DNA from: Alphaproteobacteria bacterium
GTDB lineage: Bacteria; Pseudomonadota; Alphaproteobacteria; UBA828
Length of the DNA: 11,791 nt
Direction: 5' to 3'
NCBI GenBank assembly: GCA_029937205.1
Contig: JAPYQV010000043.1
Location: 1 to 11,791 of the forward strand
Shown: piece by piece, positions 1-11,790 of the stretch
How the letters are laid out: every line of letters starts with the position of its first letter
How positions within the stretch are numbered: the stretch's first letter is position 1
The notes under the pieces: generated by a model
What the model was told of the DNA's origin: nothing
Databases searched by the model: none
The model's input: the letters and a program-made list of their open reading frames with translations, nothing else
Position numbers and translations under genes: made by a program

Positions 1-207
1 TTTTGGGAGAAGCACGGCCTGCAATGCGGCTTCTGCACGCCGGGTATGCTGATGACGGCGCTCGAGCTATTGCGTGAGAATCCCGATGCAAACAAAGCAG
101 AAATTCGCGAAGCCCTGTCGGGTAATTTGTGCCGCTGCACGGGCTATCAAACCATTGTCGAGGCAGTCGAATCGGCGGCCGCGACAATGCGGGGAGCAGA
201 TCAATGA
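1..207 (+). CDS. [2Fe-2S] small subunit of a molybdenum hydroxylase (3' end only)
   Basis: This is the C-terminal 68 residues of a CoxS/XDH-type iron-sulfur subunit; the start lies outside the window. The frame from base 1 reads through QCGFCTPGM and then LCRCTGY. These are the two Cys-x2-Cys and Cys-x-Cys motifs of the second [2Fe-2S] cluster domain, the one that sits close to the molybdopterin. The missing part should carry the plant-ferredoxin-like first cluster. The role known for the family is to pass electrons from the Mo centre toward a FAD subunit or another acceptor. The stop codon TGA overlaps the ATG of the next gene (ATGA at 204-207), which suggests translational coupling and a fixed subunit ratio. 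No FAD (CoxM-like) subunit is visible; it could lie upstream. Sure of the family, not of the substrate. Confidence 0.93.
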
Positions 208-2666
208 CGTTGGACGCCCATATCCCGGAGAGCCGGCAGACCGAAAAACCGCGCGAGTCGTATCAGTGGATCGGCAAGAGCATGAAGCGGGTCGAGGATC
301 CGAGGCTCCTCGTCGGTCGCGGCATGTTTGCCGATGACACCAATCTTCCGGAGATGGCCCATTCTGCCATCCTCCGAAGCCCGCATGCTCACGCCCGAAT
401 CTTGCGCATCGATAAAAGCAAAGCCGAGGCACTGCCCGGCGTTCTGTGTGTCATGACCGGCGCGGAAGCGGCGGAAGTCACCGGCCCGTTGCCGAGCTGG
501 GCGAACCCGCCGGTTCATCAGTATTGCATCGCCCAGGAAAAGGTCCGCCATGTCGGTGAGGCCGTCGTGGCGGTCGCCGCCGAAACCCGCTACATCGCGG
601 AAGACGCCTGCGATCTAGTCGAAGTCGAATATGAGCCCCTGCCGGCGGTGGTCGATCTCGAAGAAGCCCTAAGCTCGACCGGCGACGCCGTACTGCATCC
701 CTATCGCGGCGACACCAATGTGGCGCTCGCGCGCACCTTTACCTTCGGACCCGTGGAAGAGGATTTCGCCAAGGCCGATCGGGTGATCGAGCGCCGTCTC
801 CGCTGGCCACGCTCGGGCGGCACGCCGATGGAAACCCACGGCGCTGTGGCGAGCTTCGATCCGGGCACCGGCAAGTTCACCATTACCGCCAACACCTCGA
901 TGTATAATTACTGCGGCTGGATGATCGCCGATTCACTCGGCGTTCCAGCGCACAAGCTGAACATTGTCCCCACCCTCGCCGGTGGCAGCTTCGGCGCCAA
1001 GCTGTTCAGCCATAAGCCTTGCGTGCTAGCGGCAACGCTGGCGCGCGCCACCGGGCGGCCGGTCAAATTCATGGAAGACCGCATCGACAACACCACCGGT
1101 TGCGACGCGCACGGTTCCGATCGGGTATATTACGCCAAGCTCGCCATCAAGGATGACGGCACGCTGCTGAGTCTGAAAACCCACATCATCGACGATTACG
1201 GCGCCTATTTTCAGTTTGGTGTCGGCCAGCACGGCAACGCGCTTTCGCAGTGCGTTGGCCCGTACCAGATCAACAGCGTCGAAGTCGCGCTCGAGGCGGT
1301 GCTGACCAACAAATGCCAGCAAGGCGCCTATCGCGGCTTTGGTTCCGAGGTCGCCAATTTCGTTATCGAACGTCTGGTCGACGGCGCGGCGGCGGAACTC
1401 GGCATGGACGTGGTCGACATTCGGCGCAAGAATTTTATCACCCCCGATCAGTTCCCCTACTTGATCCCGACCGGCAACATGTATGACAGCGGAGACTATG
1501 AGGCGGTGCTCGACGCCGCGCTCGAATTGTCCGAATACGACGCGTGGCGCGAAAAACAGGCGGAGATGCGAAAAGAAGGCCGCTATGTCGGCATCGGCGT
1601 CGCCACCTGCCAGGAGCGCAGCGTGTTTAGCACCACCGAGTTTTGGATGTGGAATCTGGAACCTGGCGGAGAATGGACCAGCTCACCCGACGCTGTGTCC
1701 CTCAAGATCGACCCCACTGGAAAGGCTTTCGTAACCCTGCACTCTCCGTTCTGGGGCAACAGCCCGGAAACGGTGGTCGTGCAAATCCTAGCCGAGCAAT
1801 TGACCATCGACCCCTCTGACATTGAGGTTACGTATTCTGATTCCGATCAAGGATTCAATTCCACCGGACCCGGCGGCAGCCGCTTTACCGTGATGGTGGC
1901 AGGTGCCGTGGTCGGCGCTTCGCACAAAATCAAGAAAAAGCTTCTCCGCATCGCCGGTCATCTAATGGAGGCGGACACTGCCGATCTTGAAATTAAAGAT
2001 GGCGCGGTCTCGCTCAAAGGCGCGCCTGACAAGCGCCTGACCATCGCGGAACTTGCCAATACGGCGCATTATTTCCGGCTCGATCTGCCCGCCGATATGG
2101 ACCTGACGAGCGGCTTGGATGCGAGTTACGTCTATGACCACCCGGTCACGACCCTGCCAGCCAAAGATAATTCGCACATGGGCATCTTCTATCCGATTAT
2201 GGGCCACATGTGTCATATCCCGGTCATCGAAGTCGATATCGAAACGGGCCAAATATCATTCCTGAATTACGCGTGCGTGCACGATTGCGGCACTATGGTC
2301 AATCCGATGACCTTGCAGGGGCATGTCCGGGGTGGCGTGGTGAACGGAATCGGAAGCGCGCTTATGGAGCATTATCATTACGACGAAACCGGCCAGTTGC
2401 AGAACGTTCTGTTTACCGACTATCTCCTGCCGTCGGTCCTCGAATCGCCGGACGATATAAAAATCGGCCATGTTGTGACGCCTTCGCCATTCACTGAATA
2501 TGGCATCAAGGGCGGCGGCGAAGGCGGACGCATGGGCGCCCCACCTGCGCTGGCTGCCGCGATTGAGGATGCCCTGCGCCCACTCGGCATCACGATTGAC
2601 GAGTTGCCTCTCAGTCCAAACCGTTTGCGGCGCTTGATTCGCGAGGCTCAGGCCGGGCAGCCCTAG
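204..2666 (+). CDS. Xanthine/CO dehydrogenase-family molybdopterin-binding large subunit
   Basis: The product is an 820-residue catalytic subunit of a molybdenum hydroxylase. Such enzymes hydroxylate a carbon centre (purines, N-heterocycles, aldehydes) or oxidise CO. The frame stays open upstream to an ATG at 129, but I start at 204: this ATG has GGGGAG at 191-196, forms the ATGA overlap with the small subunit, and the normal N-terminus [19 protein letters not shown] follows about 20 residues later. Visible motifs are GGSFGAK (260-266), AYRGFG (375-380) in the active-site loop, and KGGGEGG (769-775), whose Glu773 matches the catalytic base. The loop is not the AYxCSFR of form I CO dehydrogenase, so genuine CODH activity is unlikely. 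Where bovine xanthine oxidase has Gln767 this protein has Ser232, and where it has Glu802 this protein has Leu267, by residue spacing. The substrate is unknown. No obvious terminator follows. Confidence 0.93.
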
Positions 2667-2969: not shown

Positions 2970-4136
2970 ATGAAATTATGGACACTATCGGCCGCGATCG
3001 CCTTAGGTTTGGCGCTCGCACTTAGCACGCTGGTTCCAAGCCAGGCAAAGGCGGAATCATGGTCGCAAGACATCCAGGTTTATAACCCGGCTTGCACGAA
3101 CGGTGATGAGGCATGCTGGGCCGTTGCTCAGGGCGCAGGCCTCGAAATTGTTACGTACACGGCCTTAGAAAAAGCTGACGCAAAACATCATATCTGCGTT
3201 TCTTTTCCACACCTCAAAGACTCTTACTGGGTTGGCGCAGCGTATGGAATTATTGAAGAGGGTAAACGTCTCGGGCAGAAGATCACTTTGGTGGAAGCCG
3301 GAGGGTATACTCAACTCGAAAAGCAAATTTCTCAAATTGAGGACTGCATCGCTAACGGTGCCGACGCGCTCGTTATGGCTGCAATCTCCAATGACGGTAA
3401 TGTCAAGCAAATTCAGGAAATTCGCGCCAAGGGTATTCCTGTCATCGATCTGATTAACGGTGTTAAGACCTCAGTAGATGCGAAATCTCTTATGAGCTAC
3501 TATTCAATGGGGCATACATCGTGCAAATGGGTAGCAGATCAGCATCCCGCAGGTAGCGGAAAAGTTAAAATTGCCTGGTTTCCGGGACCCCCAGGAGCAG
3601 GTTGGTCCACCGGCGGAGATAAAGGCTGTAATGATGCTGTAGCAGGAAGCGACGTGGAAATCGTCCAGACTAAATGGGGCGACACCGGTAAAGAGATCCA
3701 GCTCAAATTGGTGGAAGACGTAATTCAGTCCCAGACCTTTGATGGTGTACTTGCCCTTGATTATATTGTTGGCGTTGGCCCAGCGATTGAAAGCGCGATC
3801 GCAACCCTCAGAGATCTCGACCTCTCAGGAAAAGTCAAACTAGCATCCTACTACTATACGCCAGGCATGCACATGTTCCTGCAGCAGGGCCGCATGGATA
3901 TGGCGCCAACTGATCAGATGATCATTCAGGCACGTATTTCTATCGATCAGGCCGTAAGGCTTCTCGAGGGTAAGGGCTATGCTACGGGTGGTCGCCCGGA
4001 GTTTGGTGACACAGGCCGTATAATTGAGCACGCTCAGCCTATCGGCATTATTGTGACACCTGCAAACATCAAGGACTTTGACACAAGTACTACTTTGGCC
4101 CCCAAGGGCTGGGTTCCTTCCTTTAGCGTCGACTGA
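2970..4136 (+). CDS. TorT-like periplasmic substrate-binding protein of an ABC importer
   Basis: The 388-residue product has a clear signal peptide (MK, hydrophobic stretch, cleavage probably after SQAKA near residue 28) and a periplasmic-binding-protein fold of the ribose/TorT class. The segment LKDSYW (82-87) followed by EAGGYTQL closely matches the TorT protein of Escherichia coli as I remember it (LKDSYW, EAGGYSQL). TorT binds trimethylamine N-oxide and works with the TorS sensor kinase. No kinase is present here; an ATPase and a permease follow directly, so this copy should deliver a solute to a transporter. It is longer than TorT (about 340 residues), partly through an N-terminal stretch with Cys42 and Cys49 that could form a disulfide. 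The start is fixed by AAGGGAGG at 2957-2964. The gene looks less GC-rich than its neighbours. The ligand is unknown; a small methylated amine, N-oxide or amide is a guess. Confidence 0.88.
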   Translation: MKLWTLSAAIALGLALALSTLVPSQAKAESWSQDIQVYNPACTNGDEACWAVAQGAGLEIVTYTALEKADAKHHICVSFPHLKDSYWVGAAYGIIEEGKRLGQKITLVEAGGYTQLEKQISQIEDCIANGADALVMAAISNDGNVKQIQEIRAKGIPVIDLINGVKTSVDAKSLMSYYSMGHTSCKWVADQHPAGSGKVKIAWFPGPPGAGWSTGGDKGCNDAVAGSDVEIVQTKWGDTGKEIQLKLVEDVIQSQTFDGVLALDYIVGVGPAIESAIATLRDLDLSGKVKLASYYYTPGMHMFLQQGRMDMAPTDQMIIQARISIDQAVRLLEGKGYATGGRPEFGDTGRIIEHAQPIGIIVTPANIKDFDTSTTLAPKGWVPSFSVD

Positions 4137-4184
4137 CGTTGGAAGCACGAAAAGCAAAGTCTAACTGATGAAGGCCAGATTCAA

Positions 4185-5759
4185 GTGCCTGAAACATCCG
4201 TGACAGATAAAACTGCGTCCCCGGAGACACAAATCTCCGGGGACGTAATTCTTAAACTTGAAAGCATTTCCAAACAGTTCCCCGGCACACTTGCGCTCGA
4301 CCACGTTAATTTTGACGTGCGGGGCGGTGAAGTGCATGTGCTGTTTGGCGAGAACGGCGCTGGGAAATCCACGCTCATTCAACTGGTCGCGGGGGTTTAT
4401 CGGCAATCCTCAGGCACCATCCAATTTAAGGGTCAGGAAGTTTCGCTAACGTCGGTGAAACAGGCGCGCGATCTCGGTGTAAGCGCGGTTTTCCAGGAAT
4501 TTTCCTTGGTTCCTGAACTAAGCGTTGAAGACAATCTATTTCTTGGTTCCGAACTGACGCGCGGTCCCTTTTTGAACAAGGTGTTGTTGCGCAAACAGGC
4601 GAGGGAAACGCTCGACCGGCTCGGTTTCCCGCTGAAAGCCAATTCTATCGTTCTTTACCTGACACGCGCAGAGCAGCAAATGGTCGAAATCGCCAAGGCG
4701 TTTCGCACCAAGCCCTCAATCATGATTTTTGACGAACCGACGGCGTCGCTCACGGAAAAGGAAACCCAGCGACTGTTTCAGTTGATTGAACAGTTAAAGA
4801 CTCAGGGCATCGGCATCATCTATATCACGCACCGCATGAACGAGATCAAGCGGATCGGCGACCGCATCACGGTACTCCGCGACGGCCGGCTCATCGACAC
4901 AATTCCGGTGGAAAAGGCGAGCGATCAGAAGCTCGTCGAGTTGATGACCGGTCGCATCATCGAACAAATTTTTCCGAAGATAAAAAGGCAGGCTGGCGAA
5001 GAGTTGCTGTCGATTGAGAATTTGAATATCTCCGGCGACAACGCGGTTCACAATGCGTCGATCAACGTGCATCGCGGCGAAGTGGTGGGAATTGCCGGCC
5101 TGGTAGGTTCGGGTAAATCCTCTATAGGGCGGGCCTGCTTCGGACTTGAACGAATCCTGGCGGGCAAAATCACATTCAAAGGCGAGGTCGTTTACGATCG
5201 CGAGTCCCACTTGAACAAATTGGGCCCGAGACCGATGCTCAATCGAGGATTATACTATCTTCCGTCCAACCGCCGGGCTGAGGGTCTGGTGATGTTACAG
5301 AATGTTCGGGAAAATGTGACGATCGCCTCGCTGGCTTTGTCAAAATTTTCCAACAAATTTTTTCTTAAGAAAAAGAATGAGCGGCGCGAAGTTAGGCAAG
5401 TAGCGGAACGGCTTGATTTATCTCCGCCTAATATTGAACGAGATCTGGAACATTTCTCCGGCGGTAATCAACAAAAAGTCATGGTCGGGAAATGCCTGGT
5501 ACGGGATGTCGACCTTTTCATTTTCGATGAACCCACCGTTGGCGTGGATGTTGGCGCACGCGTGGCGATTTACGAATTTGTCAGGGATTTATGCGAGGCG
5601 GGAGCCGGGGTATTGTTAATTTCCTCGGACCTACCGGAGATACTTCATCTCACGCACCGAAGCTATGTCATGTATCGCGGCGTAGTCCGCGCTGAACTCG
5701 ATAAGTCGGAGATCAGCGAAGAGTCTGTCTTGAACTATTTCTTTGAGAAATCCGCATGA
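4185..5759 (+). CDS. RbsA-type ABC importer ATPase with two nucleotide-binding domains
   Basis: This 524-residue cytoplasmic ATPase powers uptake with the neighbouring binding protein and permease. Domain 1 has Walker A GENGAGKS (55-62), Q-loop Gln104, an altered signature LTRAEQQM (159-166), Walker B IFDEPT (181-186) and His216. Domain 2 has Walker A GLVGSGKS (305-312), signature SGGNQ (425-429) and Walker B IFDEPT (446-451). In many RbsA-like proteins the second Walker A is degenerate (GAGRTE type), so the intact Lys311 is notable. The His switch of domain 2 is replaced (SSDLPE, 480-485), as is common in the family. I use the GTG start at 4185, with AAGG at 4171-4174, because no ATG, GTG or TTG lies in frame between the GTG at 4200 and the domain's first strand. 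A strong hairpin (4216-4245) lies inside the first codons. It starts 48 bases after the binding-protein stop. Confidence 0.95.
   Translation: MPETSVTDKTASPETQISGDVILKLESISKQFPGTLALDHVNFDVRGGEVHVLFGENGAGKSTLIQLVAGVYRQSSGTIQFKGQEVSLTSVKQARDLGVSAVFQEFSLVPELSVEDNLFLGSELTRGPFLNKVLLRKQARETLDRLGFPLKANSIVLYLTRAEQQMVEIAKAFRTKPSIMIFDEPTASLTEKETQRLFQLIEQLKTQGIGIIYITHRMNEIKRIGDRITVLRDGRLIDTIPVEKASDQKLVELMTGRIIEQIFPKIKRQAGEELLSIENLNISGDNAVHNASINVHRGEVVGIAGLVGSGKSSIGRACFGLERILAGKITFKGEVVYDRESHLNKLGPRPMLNRGLYYLPSNRRAEGLVMLQNVRENVTIASLALSKFSNKFFLKKKNERREVRQVAERLDLSPPNIERDLEHFSGGNQQKVMVGKCLVRDVDLFIFDEPTVGVDVGARVAIYEFVRDLCEAGAGVLLISSDLPEILHLTHRSYVMYRGVVRAELDKSEISEESVLNYFFEKSA
4216..4245 (+). promoter_or_regulatory. 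Perfect 12-bp RNA hairpin inside the 5' end of the ATPase gene
   Basis: CGTCCCCGGAGA (4216-4227) pairs perfectly with TCTCCGGGGACG (4234-4245) around a six-base CACAAA loop. A G-U and a U-A pair could extend it outward. It lies 79 bases after the binding-protein stop and 31 bases into the ATPase reading frame. No T-run follows, so it is not a classical terminator. A likely role, by analogy with other binding-protein operons, is to protect the upstream message from 3' exonucleases or to reduce ATPase translation, so that the binding protein is made in excess. Confidence 0.7.
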
Positions 5760-5802
5760 GAACGGTCATAACTGAATAAATTGTGAATCCGGGAGAACTT
5801 TC

Positions 5803-6837
5803 ATGGCGAATGTTACCGCTCCAAGCGAAGAGTCATTACTTTCCAAAATTGAACATAGAGCGGCGGTTATATTCGTAAAGGGCGGAGTACTTCCCTGGTT
5901 CTTGGTCATGGCAATCTTGATATTTTGGCTCTCCACCGACAATTTCTTATCAGGCAGAAACATGCTCAGTATGCTGCGGCAGGCAACCTATTTGACCATG
6001 GTTGCCATGGCGCAGATGGTTGTTCTTCTAACTGCCGGGTTAGATTTATCGGTCGGCGTTATGTTTGCCATAACCTCGGTTATTTCGTCGATGGTGATGG
6101 TCGGCGCCTGGTCGGGAGATATGATGGATCCAGGTTGGGGTGCCATTGCGTTAGGCTGCGCGGCAGGTATGGGGGCTGGCACATTAGTTGGCGTATTCAA
6201 CGGCATCGGCGTCGCGATCTTCCGCGTGCCGCCTTTCATGATGACACTCGCCATGGCATCGATCGTCTTCGGTCTCGCACTGACCATCACTGGCGGAACG
6301 CCGATTTACGGCATGCCGACCGCTTTCGCCTCGACCTTTGGATACGGCAAATTCCTTTCGATTCCCGTGCCCATCTGGTTGACCATCGGCTTCATCATCA
6401 TGATGTACCTCTTTATCAACTGGACCCGGATGGGCCGCTATCTCTATGCCCTCGGCGGCAATCTGAAAGCATCTCAGCTTTCCGGTATCAATACGCGGCT
6501 CTACCTGTTCCTGGCATATGTGGTGTGCGCGGCGATAACCACGTTCTGCGCTCTCATGCTGACCGCGCGGCTCGAAAGCGGCGAATCGAACATCGGAACG
6601 CACTACCCGTTGCTTTCGATATCCGCCTGCGTGATCGGCGGTGTTAGTCTATTCGGCGGCACCGGGCGGCTGCCCAACGTGGTGCTGGGCGCAATATTTA
6701 TTATTTTGGTGCAGAACGGCATGAACCTATTGCGGATCAACTCCTACCTGCAAATGGTCGTGATTGGGCTTTTGCTTATCCTCGCCGTGATTGGCGACAA
6801 TTACCGCCAGCGGGTCATGCTGACGCTGCGTGATTGA
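5803..6837 (+). CDS. RbsC-type ABC importer permease
   Basis: The product is a 344-residue inner-membrane permease of the ribose/branched-chain (BPD_transp_2) class, with roughly eight to ten hydrophobic segments between about residue 30 and residue 331. Family hallmarks are AGLDLSVG (78-85), VFNGIGVAIFRVPPFMMTL (131-149) and GGVSLFGG (279-286). The N-terminal 25 residues are hydrophilic and probably cytoplasmic. The ATG at 5803 has GGGAGAA a few bases upstream. It follows the ATPase stop by 43 bases, and no second permease gene is present, so the channel is expected to be a homodimer, as in ribose transport. It completes the importer with the TorT-like binding protein and the two-domain ATPase. 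Sure of the family; the substrate is unknown. Confidence 0.95.
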   Translation: MANVTAPSEESLLSKIEHRAAVIFVKGGVLPWFLVMAILIFWLSTDNFLSGRNMLSMLRQATYLTMVAMAQMVVLLTAGLDLSVGVMFAITSVISSMVMVGAWSGDMMDPGWGAIALGCAAGMGAGTLVGVFNGIGVAIFRVPPFMMTLAMASIVFGLALTITGGTPIYGMPTAFASTFGYGKFLSIPVPIWLTIGFIIMMYLFINWTRMGRYLYALGGNLKASQLSGINTRLYLFLAYVVCAAITTFCALMLTARLESGESNIGTHYPLLSISACVIGGVSLFGGTGRLPNVVLGAIFIILVQNGMNLLRINSYLQMVVIGLLLILAVIGDNYRQRVMLTLRD

Positions 6838-6844
6838 AAGGCGG

Positions 6845-6860
6845 GTGGCCTCTTGGCCAC
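6845..6860 (+). other. Short hairpin after the permease gene
   Basis: GTGGCC (6845-6850) and GGCCAC (6855-6860) form a perfect 6-bp GC-rich stem with a TCTT loop, starting eight bases after the permease stop. There is no T-run, so termination is doubtful. It may mark a partial transcript end or a processing point between the transporter and DMFase-like genes. Confidence 0.4.
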
Positions 6861-6875
6861 GATCTGAAACCGATG

Positions 6876-6921
6876 TGCGGACATGCCGAGCTGAAGAGTG
6901 CGGACACGCCGCGCTGAAGAG
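6876..6921 (+). repeat. Imperfect 23-bp tandem duplication
   Basis: Two adjacent 23-bp units (6876-6898 and 6899-6921) share the pattern TGCGGACAyGCCGmGCTGAAGAG and differ at two positions. They fill most of the gap upstream of the DMFase small-subunit gene and end 21 bases before its Shine-Dalgarno AGAGAGG (6943-6949). They could be a local duplication of a regulator site or a neutral slippage product. Confidence 0.75.
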
Positions 6922-6954
6922 TAAATACAACATATTCGAATAAGAGAGGCAGTC

Positions 6955-7380
6955 ATGATACCCAACATTCCGGAGAAAACCGGGGTCCAGGAAAACCGCG
7001 GCCATTCGCTGACCGATGACTTCATCACGCGGACTTACGTCCTGCCACTGCTCACTGATGCAGAAACCAAGGCCCGGATCATATCCGAGCACAAAAACAA
7101 TCCAATCGGCGTGCCGGGCAAGGCGGGCAATAAGGCGATCGGCCATAGTGACGATTTGGCGCGGGTACTCGACAAACTGCGACGTCAGCCGATGACTGGC
7201 AAATATGTTCGGGTGTGCGTCAATCCGCACGAGGGCTATTGCATCGGCATCGTCTCGGGTGTGCGCGGTCAACCGGTGGAAATACTGCGCGACGAGGCCT
7301 ATCCGAACGAAGACGCGTGCGAACACGCAATTTTCGTACGCCGGGTCGAAGACCTTCTGGCCTCTTACGGCCTCGGCTAG
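6955..7380 (+). CDS. dmfA1: N,N-dimethylformamidase-like small (alpha) subunit
   Basis: The 141-residue soluble protein resembles, as I remember it, the roughly 132-residue small subunit of dimethylformamidase. Shared features are a helical first half, a HxxNPxG segment (HKNNPIG, 46-52), RRQPMTGKYVRV (76-87) and a C-terminal helix HAIFVRRVEDL (124-134). In the characterised enzyme the small subunit packs against the catalytic large subunit and is needed for activity; it carries no catalytic iron itself. Placement immediately before the large-subunit gene, on the same strand, supports the assignment. Cys88 and Cys96 are spaced by seven residues, a pattern repeated in the small protein at 9890-10246. 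The ATG at 6955 has AGAGAGG five bases upstream. Confidence is good for the family but the true substrate may not be dimethylformamide. Confidence 0.8.
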   Translation: MIPNIPEKTGVQENRGHSLTDDFITRTYVLPLLTDAETKARIISEHKNNPIGVPGKAGNKAIGHSDDLARVLDKLRRQPMTGKYVRVCVNPHEGYCIGIVSGVRGQPVEILRDEAYPNEDACEHAIFVRRVEDLLASYGLG

Positions 7381-7442
7381 ACGCCCCAGCGGCGACCATA
7401 ACGCCGTAGGCGACTGACATAACAACTTTTGAGACACCCCAC

Positions 7443-7472
7443 GGTACCGCGCGGGAGAACCCGGCGCGGACC
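7443..7472 (+). promoter_or_regulatory. GC-rich bulged hairpin between DMFase-like subunit genes
   Basis: The arm GGT-a-CCGCGCGGG (7443-7455) pairs with CCC-g-GCGCGGACC (7460-7472) around an AGAA loop. This makes 12 base pairs, interrupted by one bulged base on each side (A7446, G7463). The hairpin ends seven bases before the Shine-Dalgarno GGAAGGAA (7480-7487) of the large-subunit gene. There is no T-run. It could set the ratio of small to large subunit by stabilising the upstream message or by affecting ribosome access. The wider 115-base gap (7381-7495) shows nothing else I can name. Confidence 0.6.
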
Positions 7473-7495
7473 GGACACGGGAAGGAAGACGGCAC

Positions 7496-9847
7496 ATGTT
7501 GCGAATTACTGGTTACAGCGATCGCTATTCAATTTGCCCTGGCGAGAAGATTCAGTTTTACGTGAATTCCGAGAAGGGTGAGAGCTACCATGCCGACATC
7601 GTCCGAATGATTCACGGCGACACAAATCCGGACGGCCCCGGTTTTAAGATCGAGGAACTCGACACTCCGGTGAGCAAGGACTATCCCGGGCGCAATCAGG
7701 TCGTTCATGGCGGCTCCTATGCGGTAGTACCGCACGATCATCGGATGGATGTTGAAAGTTTCACATTGCAGGCGTTTATTTTTCCAACAACGCCTGACAA
7801 AGGCGTTCAGGGCGTCTTGACCAAATGTGTTGGAACGACGGGCTGTGGCCTCTTTATTGACGAAAACGCCAACCTGGCGCTGTGGATTGGCGACGGCAAC
7901 GGCAAGGTCGAGAAAATTGCCAGCGGCAAGGCGCTGCTGCGCAAGGTCTGGTATCTCGCCGCCGCTTCCTACGACGCGGCCAGTGGCGAGGTGCGGCTCT
8001 ATCAGGAACCGATCGTGACCTCGGCCAATGGCGGTCTCGGCATGTCGCTACTACACCCGGTGGAGGAGACAGCATCTGTGGTCGAGGGCCGTTCGGCCGT
8101 CGCCCCTGGTGCCAACGATGCACCGCTGCTTATGGCGGCACGCACCGAGGTTTCGAAGTCCGGGCGTACAATCTTTGGCGGCCACTACAAAGAGGCGCGG
8201 GCGCCCATTGAGCTGCCGCAACAGGCGGACGTCTATAATGGCAAGATCGATCGTCCGCGCTTCGCTAGCCGGGCGCTCGATAAAAGCGAGATCGATGCGC
8301 TAGCGCGCGGAGTCAAGAGCTGTTCGGCGGAGCTTCGCCAATGCGTGATTGGGGCATGGGATTTCCATGCCAACATCTCCGACAATATCGCCTCGACCCA
8401 AATTATAGACACATCGCCGAGCGTGCTGCACGGTCACATCGTCAATCTACCGGCGCGTGCCATGACCGGATATAACTGGACCGGCGACGAGATTGTCTAT
8501 CATCACGCGCCCGCGGAATATGGCGCCATCCATTTCCACGACGACGACATCGACGATGCGCGCTGGGAAGTGGATTTCGGCTACACCGTGCCCGAGGGCA
8601 CCAAGAGTGGCGCCTATGCAGCGCGGCTTCGTGTCGGTGGTGAAAGTTCGCCCGAAACGGAGGATTACATAACATTCTTCGTCCGCCCGCCGCAGGGAAC
8701 GGCAACCGCGAGCGTTTGCTTGATCATCCCCTCGGCGAGTTATCTGGCCTATTCCAACGACAATCTGTCGACGAATTCGGTGGTTGCCGAATTGCTCGCC
8801 GGCAAGGTGCCGATCATGCAGGCTTCCGATCTTTATCTGAACGAGCACCGCGAATACGGCTTGTCGACCTATTCGCTGCATTCGGACGGCAGTGGCGTGT
8901 GCTATTCCTCACGTCTCAGGCCGATACTCAACATGCGGCCGAAATATCGCCACTGGCTGTCGCCTTCTCTGTGGCAGCTCAACGGTGATCTGCATTTGAC
9001 GGATTGGCTGGAGCAGAAAGGCTTCGATTTTGACGTGCACACGGACGAAGATCTCGACCGTGAGGGCGTCGACCTGCTCAAGCGCTACCCCGTGGTACTG
9101 ACCGGTAGTCACCCTGAATATTCCTCGGAGAAGATGGTCGACGCCTATGAGGCTTATCAGCAGCAGGGTGGGCGCTGGCTTTACCTCGGCGCCGACGGTT
9201 TCTACTGGGTTACCGAGTTCCATCCCGACAACGGCAACATCGTCGAAGTGCGCAAGGGCGAGGCCGGGACACGCGCCTGGACGGCGAATCCGGGCGAATA
9301 CAACAACGCCTTCGACGGCAAATATGGCGGCATGTGGCGCGCCCGCGGGCGCATTCCGAGCAAGGTCTGCGGTTTAACCTTTACGGCCTACGGCTTCGAC
9401 GTCTCGTCCTACTACCGGCGCGACGTTGATAGCTTCCGCCCTGAATGCGCATGGATGTTCGAGGGCATCGGCGATGACGAAATTATAGGCGATTTCGGAC
9501 TTGTCGGTGGCGCTGCCGCCGGGCTGGAGTTGGACCGCTATGACCTTGAATTCGGCACCCCGCACAATGCCTATCTGCTGGCGCGTTCCGAGGGTCACAC
9601 CGATCTCATGATGCAGGTCAACGAGGAGATTCATTTCACCGTTCGCGGCTATTACGGCGGCGGCGACGAAAATCCGATGATCCGGGCGGACATGATTTAC
9701 TACAAGACGCCCAACGACGGCGCGGTATTTGCGCCGGGTTCGCTTGCCTGGTGCGGCAGCCTGTCGCACGACAATTACGCCAATAATGTTTCGCAACTCA
9801 TGGAGAACGTCATCCGGGGCTTCCTCAAGGAAGGTCCGCTGCCCTAG
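7496..9847 (+). CDS. dmfA2: N,N-dimethylformamidase-like large (catalytic) subunit
   Basis: The 783-residue protein matches the dimethylformamidase large subunit (about 762 residues) along its length as I remember it. Dimethylformamidase hydrolyses N,N-dimethylformamide to dimethylamine and formate. Residues about 85-270 look like a LamG/concanavalin-type beta-sandwich, and the C-terminal half is the catalytic domain. The published Paracoccus structure shows a mononuclear iron held by two tyrosines and one glutamate (Tyr399, Tyr440, Glu521, from memory). The equivalents here are Tyr419 in SYLAYSN, Tyr459 in YGLSTYS and Glu541 in GSHPEY, with His539 also kept. The spacings 40 and 82 compare with 41 and 81. 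Other conserved blocks are GDLHLTDWLEQKGFDFDV (497-514) and GLVGG (668-672). There is no signal peptide, so it acts in the cytoplasm. The start is supported by GGAAGGAA at 7480-7487. Substrate range is not predictable; formamides or other small amides are likely. Confidence 0.9.
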   Translation: MLRITGYSDRYSICPGEKIQFYVNSEKGESYHADIVRMIHGDTNPDGPGFKIEELDTPVSKDYPGRNQVVHGGSYAVVPHDHRMDVESFTLQAFIFPTTPDKGVQGVLTKCVGTTGCGLFIDENANLALWIGDGNGKVEKIASGKALLRKVWYLAAASYDAASGEVRLYQEPIVTSANGGLGMSLLHPVEETASVVEGRSAVAPGANDAPLLMAARTEVSKSGRTIFGGHYKEARAPIELPQQADVYNGKIDRPRFASRALDKSEIDALARGVKSCSAELRQCVIGAWDFHANISDNIASTQIIDTSPSVLHGHIVNLPARAMTGYNWTGDEIVYHHAPAEYGAIHFHDDDIDDARWEVDFGYTVPEGTKSGAYAARLRVGGESSPETEDYITFFVRPPQGTATASVCLIIPSASYLAYSNDNLSTNSVVAELLAGKVPIMQASDLYLNEHREYGLSTYSLHSDGSGVCYSSRLRPILNMRPKYRHWLSPSLWQLNGDLHLTDWLEQKGFDFDVHTDEDLDREGVDLLKRYPVVLTGSHPEYSSEKMVDAYEAYQQQGGRWLYLGADGFYWVTEFHPDNGNIVEVRKGEAGTRAWTANPGEYNNAFDGKYGGMWRARGRIPSKVCGLTFTAYGFDVSSYYRRDVDSFRPECAWMFEGIGDDEIIGDFGLVGGAAAGLELDRYDLEFGTPHNAYLLARSEGHTDLMMQVNEEIHFTVRGYYGGGDENPMIRADMIYYKTPNDGAVFAPGSLAWCGSLSHDNYANNVSQLMENVIRGFLKEGPLP

Positions 9848-9889: not shown

Positions 9890-10246
9890 ATGTCGGAAAA
9901 AACGCGCAGCTCTCCCATGCCGCTCGTGAAGCCGCCGCCCGGCAAGCATATGATGCCGACGCGGGAGCAGCCGGCGAGCGCGCTGGAGCAATCACTCTTG
10001 GGCGACCTCGATCCCGAAAAGCTCAGCGACCTCGCCGAGGTGTTGTTCGCCTTGAACAATCATCAACACGGTCCGATCCCGGGCTTCTATGTGGTGGTGT
10101 GCACCAAATCGGACCGTGAATGGTGCGTCGGCCAACTCTGCGCTGATCGCGAGAAGCCGCTGTTGCTGTTCGAGGACAAGCTCTACGATTCGCCTGAAAC
10201 CGCTCAGGCCGCCGCCGAACGTCTGAAGGCAGCGCAATCCGCCTAA
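9890..10246 (+). CDS. Second DmfA1-like small protein
   Basis: I do not know a named family for this 118-residue protein, but its C-terminal two thirds align with the small subunit encoded at 6955-7380. SDLAEVLFAL (46-55) matches DDLARVLDKL (66-75), and GFYVVVC-x7-CVG (65-81) matches GKYVRVC-x7-CIG (82-98), with the same Gly-to-Cys and Cys-to-Cys distances. The N-terminal 30 residues are different: basic, Pro-rich and probably disordered. It follows the large-subunit gene by 42 bases, so it belongs to the same operon. It could be an alternative small subunit, a regulatory subunit or an assembly partner. The start at 9890 has AAGGG 12 bases upstream, a rather long spacing; the ATG at 9917 is an alternative. 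Its stop overlaps the stop of the convergent gene by four bases. Confidence 0.75.
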   Translation: MSEKTRSSPMPLVKPPPGKHMMPTREQPASALEQSLLGDLDPEKLSDLAEVLFALNNHQHGPIPGFYVVVCTKSDREWCVGQLCADREKPLLLFEDKLYDSPETAQAAAERLKAAQSA

Positions 10247-11348
10247 GTTCCGTTGGGCAGGTCCATATTGTAAAAACGGGCGCAGTTCCTGAAGACGATG
10301 TCATCGCGCACGGACTCGTCGAGATGACCAAAGACCTGCTCGATCACCGCTTTGGTATCTGGATAGGTGCAGCGCGCGTGGGGGAAATCCGAGCCCCACA
10401 TGATGGTTTTGTGGTCGATCACGTCGAGCACCTTATCGAGATAGGGATCGTCGATCAGGCCATGATAGATCTGGCTCAAATATTCCTCGATCGGTTTACC
10501 GATTGTGGGAATGTCCATTGCCGGCCCGAAATCGTCCTGGATTTGTTTTGTGCGGAACAACCAGTAGGGCAGCCACGAGACTTCATATTCCGAGAGCACG
10601 AGCTTGAGTTTCGGAAAGCGGTCAAGCACGCCGCCGAATATGAACTCGTTGGTCAGTACCGGACCCGCTTCAGCAAACACACCGAGCGTGCTGCGTGGCA
10701 CATCGATGCGATCCTTGCCATGTAGGGTAAACAGATCTACCTCGTTGCCGGTGATGATGTGCAGCGTAACCGGCTGATCCAATTCCTGCGCACGCGCCCA
10801 AAATGGATCATAGACCTTATCCTGATAGCGCGGCCATTCACGCCGCGCGTCACAGTTGATAATGCAGCTCTTGAGGCCTTTCTTGGCGGTACGCTCCAGC
10901 TCGCGCACCGCCCAATCGATATCGGCCATGTGGATCATTGAAGTGCCGTAGAGCCGCTTGGGCGCATGGCTGCAATATTCCGCCAGCCAATCGTTGAACA
11001 CCTGACAACATTCCTCGACCAACCGATCGTCCAGCGCCCGCATGACGTAGAGACACCAGGTGGAGTTCACGATCTCGCCCCACACGCCGTCCTCATCCAT
11101 GCATTTCAAGCGCATCGCGGGATCATTGCCTGAGGCCACCAACTTTTGCTGAAGCGCCTCGTCACCCTCGACAATCTCATCAATCCGGACATATTCAAAA
11201 CCGGTAAAAAAATGTTCTGCCTTTACGCCGTTATACTGATCGACGATGTGGGGCACCGCATCGCCATATTTTTTACCCAAGGGCTGCGCCACAGTTCGGC
11301 GGGCTCGATCACATGCGAATCGCCTGAAATTATCGGTTTTGGCGTCAT
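10243..11348 (-). CDS. Amidohydrolase-2 family metal hydrolase, frameshifted near its N-terminus
   Basis: This is an ACMSD/amidohydrolase-2 (TIM-barrel) enzyme of about 368 residues, of the type that hydrolyses or decarboxylates small acids and amides at a metal centre. The natural start is the ATG at 11348, with GGGAGAG and AAGGA just upstream; it encodes ISGDSHVIEPAELW, containing the family's N-terminal Asp-x-His motif. That frame stops 27 codons after the frameshift region at most, while the body of the protein (TLHIITG, SEYEVSWLPYW, MWGSDFPH) lies one frame over, open from 11292 to 10243. The frames join at a run of six A residues on the coding strand (11269-11274): one more A would give WVKKYGDAVPHIVD. 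In repaired numbering the expected ligands are Asp10, His12, His197 and Asp321. It may be a sequencing error, a fresh pseudogene or programmed slippage. It lies 31 bases downstream of the next minus-strand gene. Confidence 0.85.
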
Positions 11349-11379: not shown

Positions 11380-11790
11380 TTACTCGGCGGCGCGTTGGGC
11401 CAGACCGCCCGTCATGCCGATCTCGTTGATGCGCGCTTGGGTATAGACATCGCTCCACATGTCGTATGAAAACTCGGAACGCAAGCGCCGCACATTCTTG
11501 TTGATCTCGAGCTCAACCGTCTCGCCGCCTTGGATGATTTCGCAGATGCGCGAGCGATCCTGCAGAATTGTGATATCGGCCAGTGGGTCGCCATCAATAA
11601 TCAGGATATCTGCCAGCCGCCCCGCTTCAAGCGCACCCACTTGACCGTCCTCGCGAACAAAAGTGCCGTTGTTGACGGTCGCACATTTCAGTGTCTCTGC
11701 CGGGCTGAAGCCGAGATATTTCACATAATGCTCCAGCTCGCGCGCGTGCCATTCGCCATAAGGCGTAACGGCAAACCCCGCATCCGAGCC
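11380..11790 (-). CDS. Imidazolonepropionase-like amidohydrolase (C-terminal 136 residues)
   Basis: The gene runs off the right edge of the window, so its start is missing. The visible frame begins GSDAGFAVTPYGEWHARELE and continues through GFSPAETLKCATVNNG and VGALEAGRLADILIIDGDPL. These are typical of the C-terminal third of amidohydrolase-1 family enzymes (imidazolonepropionase and prolidase-like members). The Asp of GSDAG is the expected metal-binding or catalytic aspartate, and the AGRLADILIIDGDP part forms the small beta-sandwich after the barrel. About 50 residues of charged tail follow. These enzymes hydrolyse cyclic amides, ureides or related C-N bonds in the cytoplasm; the substrate here is unknown. 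It is probably co-transcribed with the amidohydrolase-2 gene that starts 31 bases downstream. Confidence 0.88.
   Translation of the reverse strand, partial: GSDAGFAVTPYGEWHARELEHYVKYLGFSPAETLKCATVNNGTFVREDGQVGALEAGRLADILIIDGDPLADITILQDRSRICEIIQGGETVELEINKNVRRLRSEFSYDMWSDVYTQARINEIGMTGGLAQRAAE

Follow-up and report, generated by a model that had tools for sequence, protein, structure and literature searches.

A TorT-like ABC importer recurrently linked to a dimethylformamidase-family enzyme: a candidate uptake and hydrolysis system for small N-substituted amides

What does a relative of TorT, the periplasmic partner in the TorT/TorS/TorR system for sensing trimethylamine N-oxide (TMAO) in E. 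coli and Vibrio, do when it is encoded immediately ahead of an ABC importer and a dimethylformamidase (DMFase)-like enzyme? The question is raised by contig JAPYQV010000043.1, whose complete length of 11,791 bases (C559 in our numbering) is the window analyzed here, from an alphaproteobacterial metagenome-assembled genome (G000; 3,377,451 bases, 630 contigs, 87% complete, 6% contaminated). Its plus strand encodes, in order, a molybdenum hydroxylase, a TorT-like solute-binding protein (SBP), an ATPase, a permease, DmfA1, DmfA2 and a 118-residue protein, here called DmfA3, while the minus strand carries two amidohydrolases (Table 1). The six genes from the SBP to DmfA3 all lie on one strand with intergenic gaps of 42-117 bp. 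Every gene named in the original prediction, which was made from this stretch alone, is present where it was placed, and the names hold. We propose that the locus probably serves to take up and hydrolyze a small amide that is N-substituted, and most likely N-methylated; it is assembled from known parts and was only partly foreseen by that prediction.

The SBP carries the two segments that had been singled out as TorT hallmarks, LKDSYW (residues 82-87) and EAGGYTQL (residues 109-116). However, D84, Y86, W87, E109, A110, G112 and Y113 do not vary across an alignment of 12 rows that mixes importer-type with TorS-paired relatives, and the motifs are therefore not diagnostic of sensing. The protein scores 309.6 bits with the NCBIfam TorT model NF008185 (cut-off 200) and 225.8 with TIGR02955 (cut-off 310), and among solved structures its sequence comes closest to 4yhs (309 bits), with the TorT structure 3o1h second to it at 153 bits. 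The PDB names 4yhs a CUT2-family ABC binding protein of Bradyrhizobium; its motif, MKDAYW, is that of the lactamase-linked loci L063 and L064. Compared with the TorT/TorS/TorR system, the window SBP has the same fold and core residues but is accompanied by ABC genes instead, none of the nine window proteins scanned being a TorS-type kinase. Elsewhere in G000, on contig C318 (L098:2-3774), a separate TorS-type hybrid kinase is divergent from a second, distinct TorT-like SBP. The ATPase and permease of the window score best with AraG/RbsA and AraH/RbsC models, and the adjacent Peripla_BP_4 binding protein, single double-cassette ATPase and RbsC-type permease together constitute a CUT2-type importer. 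In the SBP tree (65 rows after 16 loci repeating the same genomes were set aside; rows trimmed to the last 400 residues, or 390 for L015, whose open reading frame (ORF) is over-long), the window SBP belongs to a clade with support of 100/100, hereafter clade A. Both ABC genes lie within 10 kb of the SBP in all 18 clade-A loci with usable flanks, which supports the earlier idea that a TorT-like protein serves transport. That the fold is so used instead of sensing fits the window protein, but TorT-like importers form a broader group, for which the CUT2 name already stands in PDB entry 4yhs. The ATPase of L043 is truncated at a contig end and scored below the limit, and was counted as "none".

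The linkage between this importer and the DMFase-like enzyme is real, recurrent and not a matter of chance. We surveyed 49 genomes behind TorT-like loci (50 of 51 loci, L047 being left out) and found DmfA2 of at least 74% identity in 15 of the 18 fetched clade-A genomes, or 16 of 19 with the window's own, as against none of the 31 genomes with other TorT-like proteins. The 15 copies lie at 74-91% identity, and one is interrupted by an in-frame stop; no copy among the 31 genomes reaches 65%, distant ones of 36-43% being present in two. Lacking DmfA2 are L007, from a genome 67% complete, and the basal members L015 and L019. DmfA2 lies within 10 kb of the SBP in 8 of the 18 clade-A loci with usable flanks, and does so in three layouts: on the same strand in the window and L006, divergently in L054, and on the opposite strand in the Thioglobus/SUP05 type. 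L006 comes from an uncultured alphaproteobacterium, G010, the closest locus-bearing relative, in which the order is kept from the hydroxylase through the 118-residue protein. The co-location read from a single stretch thus recurs in other genomes, and the refuting outcome named in the original prediction, absence of this co-location elsewhere, did not occur. Within the window's order (22 genomes), the clade-A SBP is found in 10 of the 10 genomes with DmfA2 of at least 75% identity (in G019 with a partial gene at the contig end) and in one of the 12 without it (G011, which has the SBP alone); among the six genomes of the genus, either part occurs only in G000 and G010. Judging from matching places and lengths, G419-G426, G435 and G465 are taken to be the same as genomes of this order numbered among G010-G020. 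The corresponding Fisher p-values, 3e-5 and 5e-10 (the latter for 15/18 against 0/31), ignore kinship, and we therefore regard the both-or-neither pattern within the genus and the three layouts as the stronger points.

The DmfA2-like protein keeps the equivalents of parDMFase Y399, Y440, H519, E521, E657 and F693, so that iron ligands and catalytic Glu are conserved; all six are identical across the 120 closest listed homologs, the window's own record included. It has the 2-Tyr-1-Glu iron site and the catalytic Glu of a DMFase large subunit (Y399, Y440, E521 and E657 equivalents). Relative to the Paracoccus/Methylobacterium DMFase (pAMI2, pLVM1; structure 6lvb), the large subunit is 43% (pAMI2) and 42% (DM1) identical over the alignment, the iron ligands are common to both, and the small subunit is homologous. 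Those loci read LuxR-DmfA1-DmfA2, with no match to DmfA3 or to an RbsA-type importer in the fetched stretch. The original prediction spoke of an enzyme pair; the genes actually form a trio, its third member having been missed just past position 9847, where that prediction ended. DmfA3 is homologous to DmfA1 (BLASTP E 3e-8; hhalign probability 96.9) and recurs beside DmfA2 in other loci, and is likely a third subunit of the DMFase-family enzyme. DMFase is an alpha2beta2 complex with one kind of small subunit; the window encodes a second small-subunit paralog, whose membership in the complex is putative. The small-subunit tree has 48 rows after 14 repeated loci were set aside, with ORFs of more than 200 residues trimmed to the last 145. 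L093, which has DmfA2-like copies of 65% and 69% and one small subunit only, was counted as "single", and in G427 (L132) DmfA2 ends at the contig end, with any small subunits beyond sight. Further members of the family occur elsewhere: G000 holds four further DMFA2_C-family genes of approximately 49-52% identity (on C7, C157, C311 and C427), G016, of the same family as G000, shows nine DmfA2-like matches, and a DmfA1-DmfA2 pair lies on plasmid 2 of the haloarchaeon Halalkalicoccus jeotgali (L062).

Clues to the ligand come from the neighbors of related importers. In L015, a basal clade-A member from Salipiger pentaromativorans P9, the importer adjoins genes for trimethylamine monooxygenase (Tmm; 838 bits, cut-off 675) and TMAO demethylase (Tdm; 1166 bits, cut-off 1100), and the contig also encodes a Dmm haem N-demethylase family protein, sarcosine oxidase (Sox) subunits, a GmaS-like protein and Mgs-like, glutamate-synthase-like subunits. 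A clade-A importer thus lies in a Roseobacter-type methylated-amine island (tmm, tdm, gmaS, dmm), which lends indirect support to the earlier proposal of an N-methylated ligand class. In its sister L019, a GcvT-like gene sits between the SBP and the ATPase. The TMAO importer TmoXWV is presumably of a different type from that of the window. TmoXWV is the importer named for such islands in the relevant passage of PMC4543880. The TorT-like CUT2 importer in the methylated-amine island of this Salipiger strain (L134-L135) is a candidate TMAO importer of another type. Outside clade A, PxpB or PxpC occurs within 10 kb in 21 of the 28 importer-linked TorT-like rows (four rows, L075 and L081-L083, have flanks of only 1.5 kb), and PxpA, biotin carboxylase, GabT and GabD are frequent companions; we read these neighbors as a lactam-opening set. 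As the enzymes that TorT-like importers pair with act on small polar compounds of the N-alkyl or amide kind, an N-methylated amide is favored for the window. Dimethylformamide (DMF) itself is disfavored: a known dimethylamine sink, the dimethylamine monooxygenase family PF11927, has no match in any of the 16 genomes with both parts, a search that covered this one route. We consider a monomethyl amide, for instance N-methylformamide, a likelier substrate than DMF. N-methylformamide is the compound that parDMFase handles most efficiently in Table 1 of PMC7686228, an analogy that is suggestive only.

The TorT-like SBP would accordingly capture the compound in the periplasm and hand it to the CUT2-type RbsC/RbsA importer, and the cytoplasmic iron enzyme, with DmfA2 as the predicted catalytic part and DmfA1 and its paralog DmfA3 as putative small subunits, would cleave the amide bond to yield a short acid and an amine. 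Of this picture, the gene content, homology, kept catalytic residues, third small protein and repeated linkage come directly from the computation, and the direction of transport, subunit assembly, ligand and products are inferred.

Several observations weigh against this proposal. In 7 of the 10 same-order genomes with both parts (G012, G014-G017, G019, G020), the importer and DmfA2 are on different contigs, and in those seven the importer's neighbor, where read, is an Amidohydro_2 gene. L015 and L019 are without DmfA2 of the window's clade; conversely, the DMFase trio is present in G696 and G766 but a TorT-like SBP is not, and a single in-frame stop interrupts DmfA2 in G422 (evidently the same genome as G012). 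At the enzyme level, the position of Asn547, present in the Paracoccus/Methylobacterium DMFase, is Asp in the window and in 85 of the 120 closest listed homologs; this residue is essential in parDMFase, N547A being inactive according to PMC7686228. Furthermore, the related enzyme 8huy is an N-acetyl-beta-phenylalanine acylase, and the window's substrate could therefore be larger. As to the fate of the amine, the absence of PF11927 counts here too, and a GmaS-like enzyme (TIGR03105) does not discriminate, since 22 of 25 genomes have one over the cut-off, among them members of the window's genus that lack the locus; in G000 such a gene lies on contig C332. Finally, the sister clades of clade A point to lactams instead.

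These points can be set against other explanations. One holds that TMAO or some other N-methylated amine is what the importer carries; the DMFase-like enzyme would then have a different, later or unrelated substrate and be linked only through membership in a nitrogen-scavenging island. The Salipiger importer beside Tmm and Tdm, the core residues common to the window SBP and E. coli TorT, and the separate contigs in seven of ten genomes are in keeping with it. However, no member of the Tmm, Tdm, GmaS and Dmm set is among the nine window proteins scanned, and genome-wide G000 has no PF11927 match and a best Tdm score of 217 of the 1100 bits needed, over the GcvT part only, Tmm falling outside that genome-wide search. 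Moreover, L015 lacks the DmfA2 clade, as if the partners replace each other, and importer and DMFase occur together in three layouts; we consider this explanation possible but unlikely. The ligand might alternatively be a lactam, or a cyclic amide of larger size, whose ring the DMFase-like enzyme itself opens. Such a ligand would accord with the Pxp neighbors of the sister clades, with an Aestuarium record that names LamB, 4-aminobutyrate transaminase and GabD, with the PxpA and biotin carboxylase genes alongside the DMFase trio in G696 and G766, and with the clade-A genome G020, where the DmfA2 trio has a PxpC-like gene at a distance of 7.7 kb (L091, C167, 12157-13722). Yet the fetched stretches around clade-A importers, some ending at contig ends, hold no Pxp match, and the parDMFase passages of PMC7686228 mention no lactam activity, making a lactam quite doubtful. 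That an ordinary CUT2 sugar importer adjoins an amidase by chance is highly improbable: although the top scores of the ATPase and permease are with sugar-importer models, no NCBIfam sugar model is over its cut-off among the matches listed for the SBP, the ATPase (best 25 of 192 rows) and the permease, the SBP is TorT-like and not sugar-like, and the linkage to DmfA2 recurs. We hence retain uptake and cleavage of a small N-substituted amide as the probable function.

A related gene assemblage extends the picture. In the Thioglobus/SUP05-type loci L016-L018, L020 and L021, the clade-A importer and DMFase trio flank genes for a rhodopsin, a flotillin, a hybrid kinase and a response regulator, and the DmfA2 copies keep Asn at the Asn547 position. 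The same loci have, at approximately 15990-20620, a second ABC set whose ATPase is extended and whose permease is of double length (each about 717-736 aa), and the rhodopsins beside it keep what we take to be the helix G lysine. By gene content, sequences not being compared, these loci match the flotillin-associated rhodopsin (FArhodopsin) cluster (PMC10308929). That paper lists a dimethylformamidase and a PxpA-like gene and reads the cluster in terms of membrane structure, and the words TorT and lactam are absent from its main text. G696 and G766 likewise combine the DMFase trio with rhodopsin, flotillin, PxpA and biotin carboxylase, joined by PxpB/C in the G766 stretch and a sodium:solute symporter in G696. 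Flotillin is also encoded upstream of DmfA2 in G427 and, on plasmid p1 of Aminobacter niigataensis DMFA1 (L057; typed conjugative), in the order flotillin-DmfA1-DmfA2-DmfA3 with a LIV-type importer. We suggest that the metabolic core of the FArhodopsin cluster is amide and lactam utilization. The window is not itself such a cluster: neither rhodopsin nor flotillin, whose adjacency marks one, is among the nine window proteins scanned, and G000 (87% complete) has no match to flotillin PF15975, nor to rhodopsin PF01036, a model with which control sequences gave no match either.

The remaining genes of the window are enzymes. The top NCBIfam carbon monoxide dehydrogenase (CODH) model gives the molybdenum hydroxylase 521 bits, below its 950 cut-off; the protein was scanned as 207-2666, its start ATG being read from the ORF, and no partner medium or small subunit is among the window ORFs scanned. 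L006 likewise has this gene upstream of the SBP, and in L008 it lies close by. The Amidohydro_2 gene recurs as a neighbor of the importer in eight further fetched loci (L007-L013, L054), and the prolidase/ochratoxinase-type amidohydrolase does so in three (L007, L009, L054); a full-length relative of the latter (L054:16163-17521) matches amide hydrolase structures.

Table 1. Features of the 11,791-base window.
Feature	Position	Strand	Basis or remark
Molybdenum hydroxylase large subunit, xanthine-dehydrogenase family, CODH-like	204..2666	+	Pfam PF02738/PF20256/PF01315
TorT-like periplasmic SBP of ABC importer	2970..4136	+	N-terminal signal peptide judged by eye; NCBIfam and structure matches
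RbsA-type double ATP-binding cassette ATPase	4185..5759	+	PF00005 in two stretches; AraG 459 bits, below cut-off
RbsC-type permease	5803..6837	+	PF02653, 97.5 bits
DmfA1-like small subunit, DMFase-family amidohydrolase	6955..7380	+	6lvb_B, E 2.1e-5
DmfA2-like large catalytic subunit, iron amidohydrolase	7496..9847	+	PF20254, 313 bits; 6lvb_A, E 1.4e-182
DmfA1 paralog, proposed third subunit (DmfA3)	9890..10246	+	BLASTP, hhalign
Amidohydro_2 enzyme, convergent	10243..11292	-	PF04909; recurring neighbor of importer clade
Prolidase/ochratoxinase-type amidohydrolase, C-terminal part	11380..11790	-	PF01979; ends at contig end

More broadly, we tentatively put forward, as a view that may prove somewhat too general, that the TorT-like proteins make up a family of dedicated importers whose ligands are small polar N-alkyl compounds (TMAO, N-methylated amides, lactams) and each of which is coupled to the enzyme that breaks its ligand, with TorS-coupled sensing as one branch, a three-subunit DMFase-family amidohydrolase as the partner of the window's clade, and amide/lactam utilization as the core of the flotillin-rhodopsin island. 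If true, this would give a testable ligand class to a branch of ABC importers labeled "TMAO reductase system periplasmic protein TorT" in databases and extend an enzyme family, described until now with two parts, by a third subunit. It would also point to a natural role for DMFase-like enzymes in the use of organic nitrogen, as opposed to one in solvent pollution, and provide a concrete function for an unexplained flotillin-rhodopsin gene island of widespread marine bacteria.

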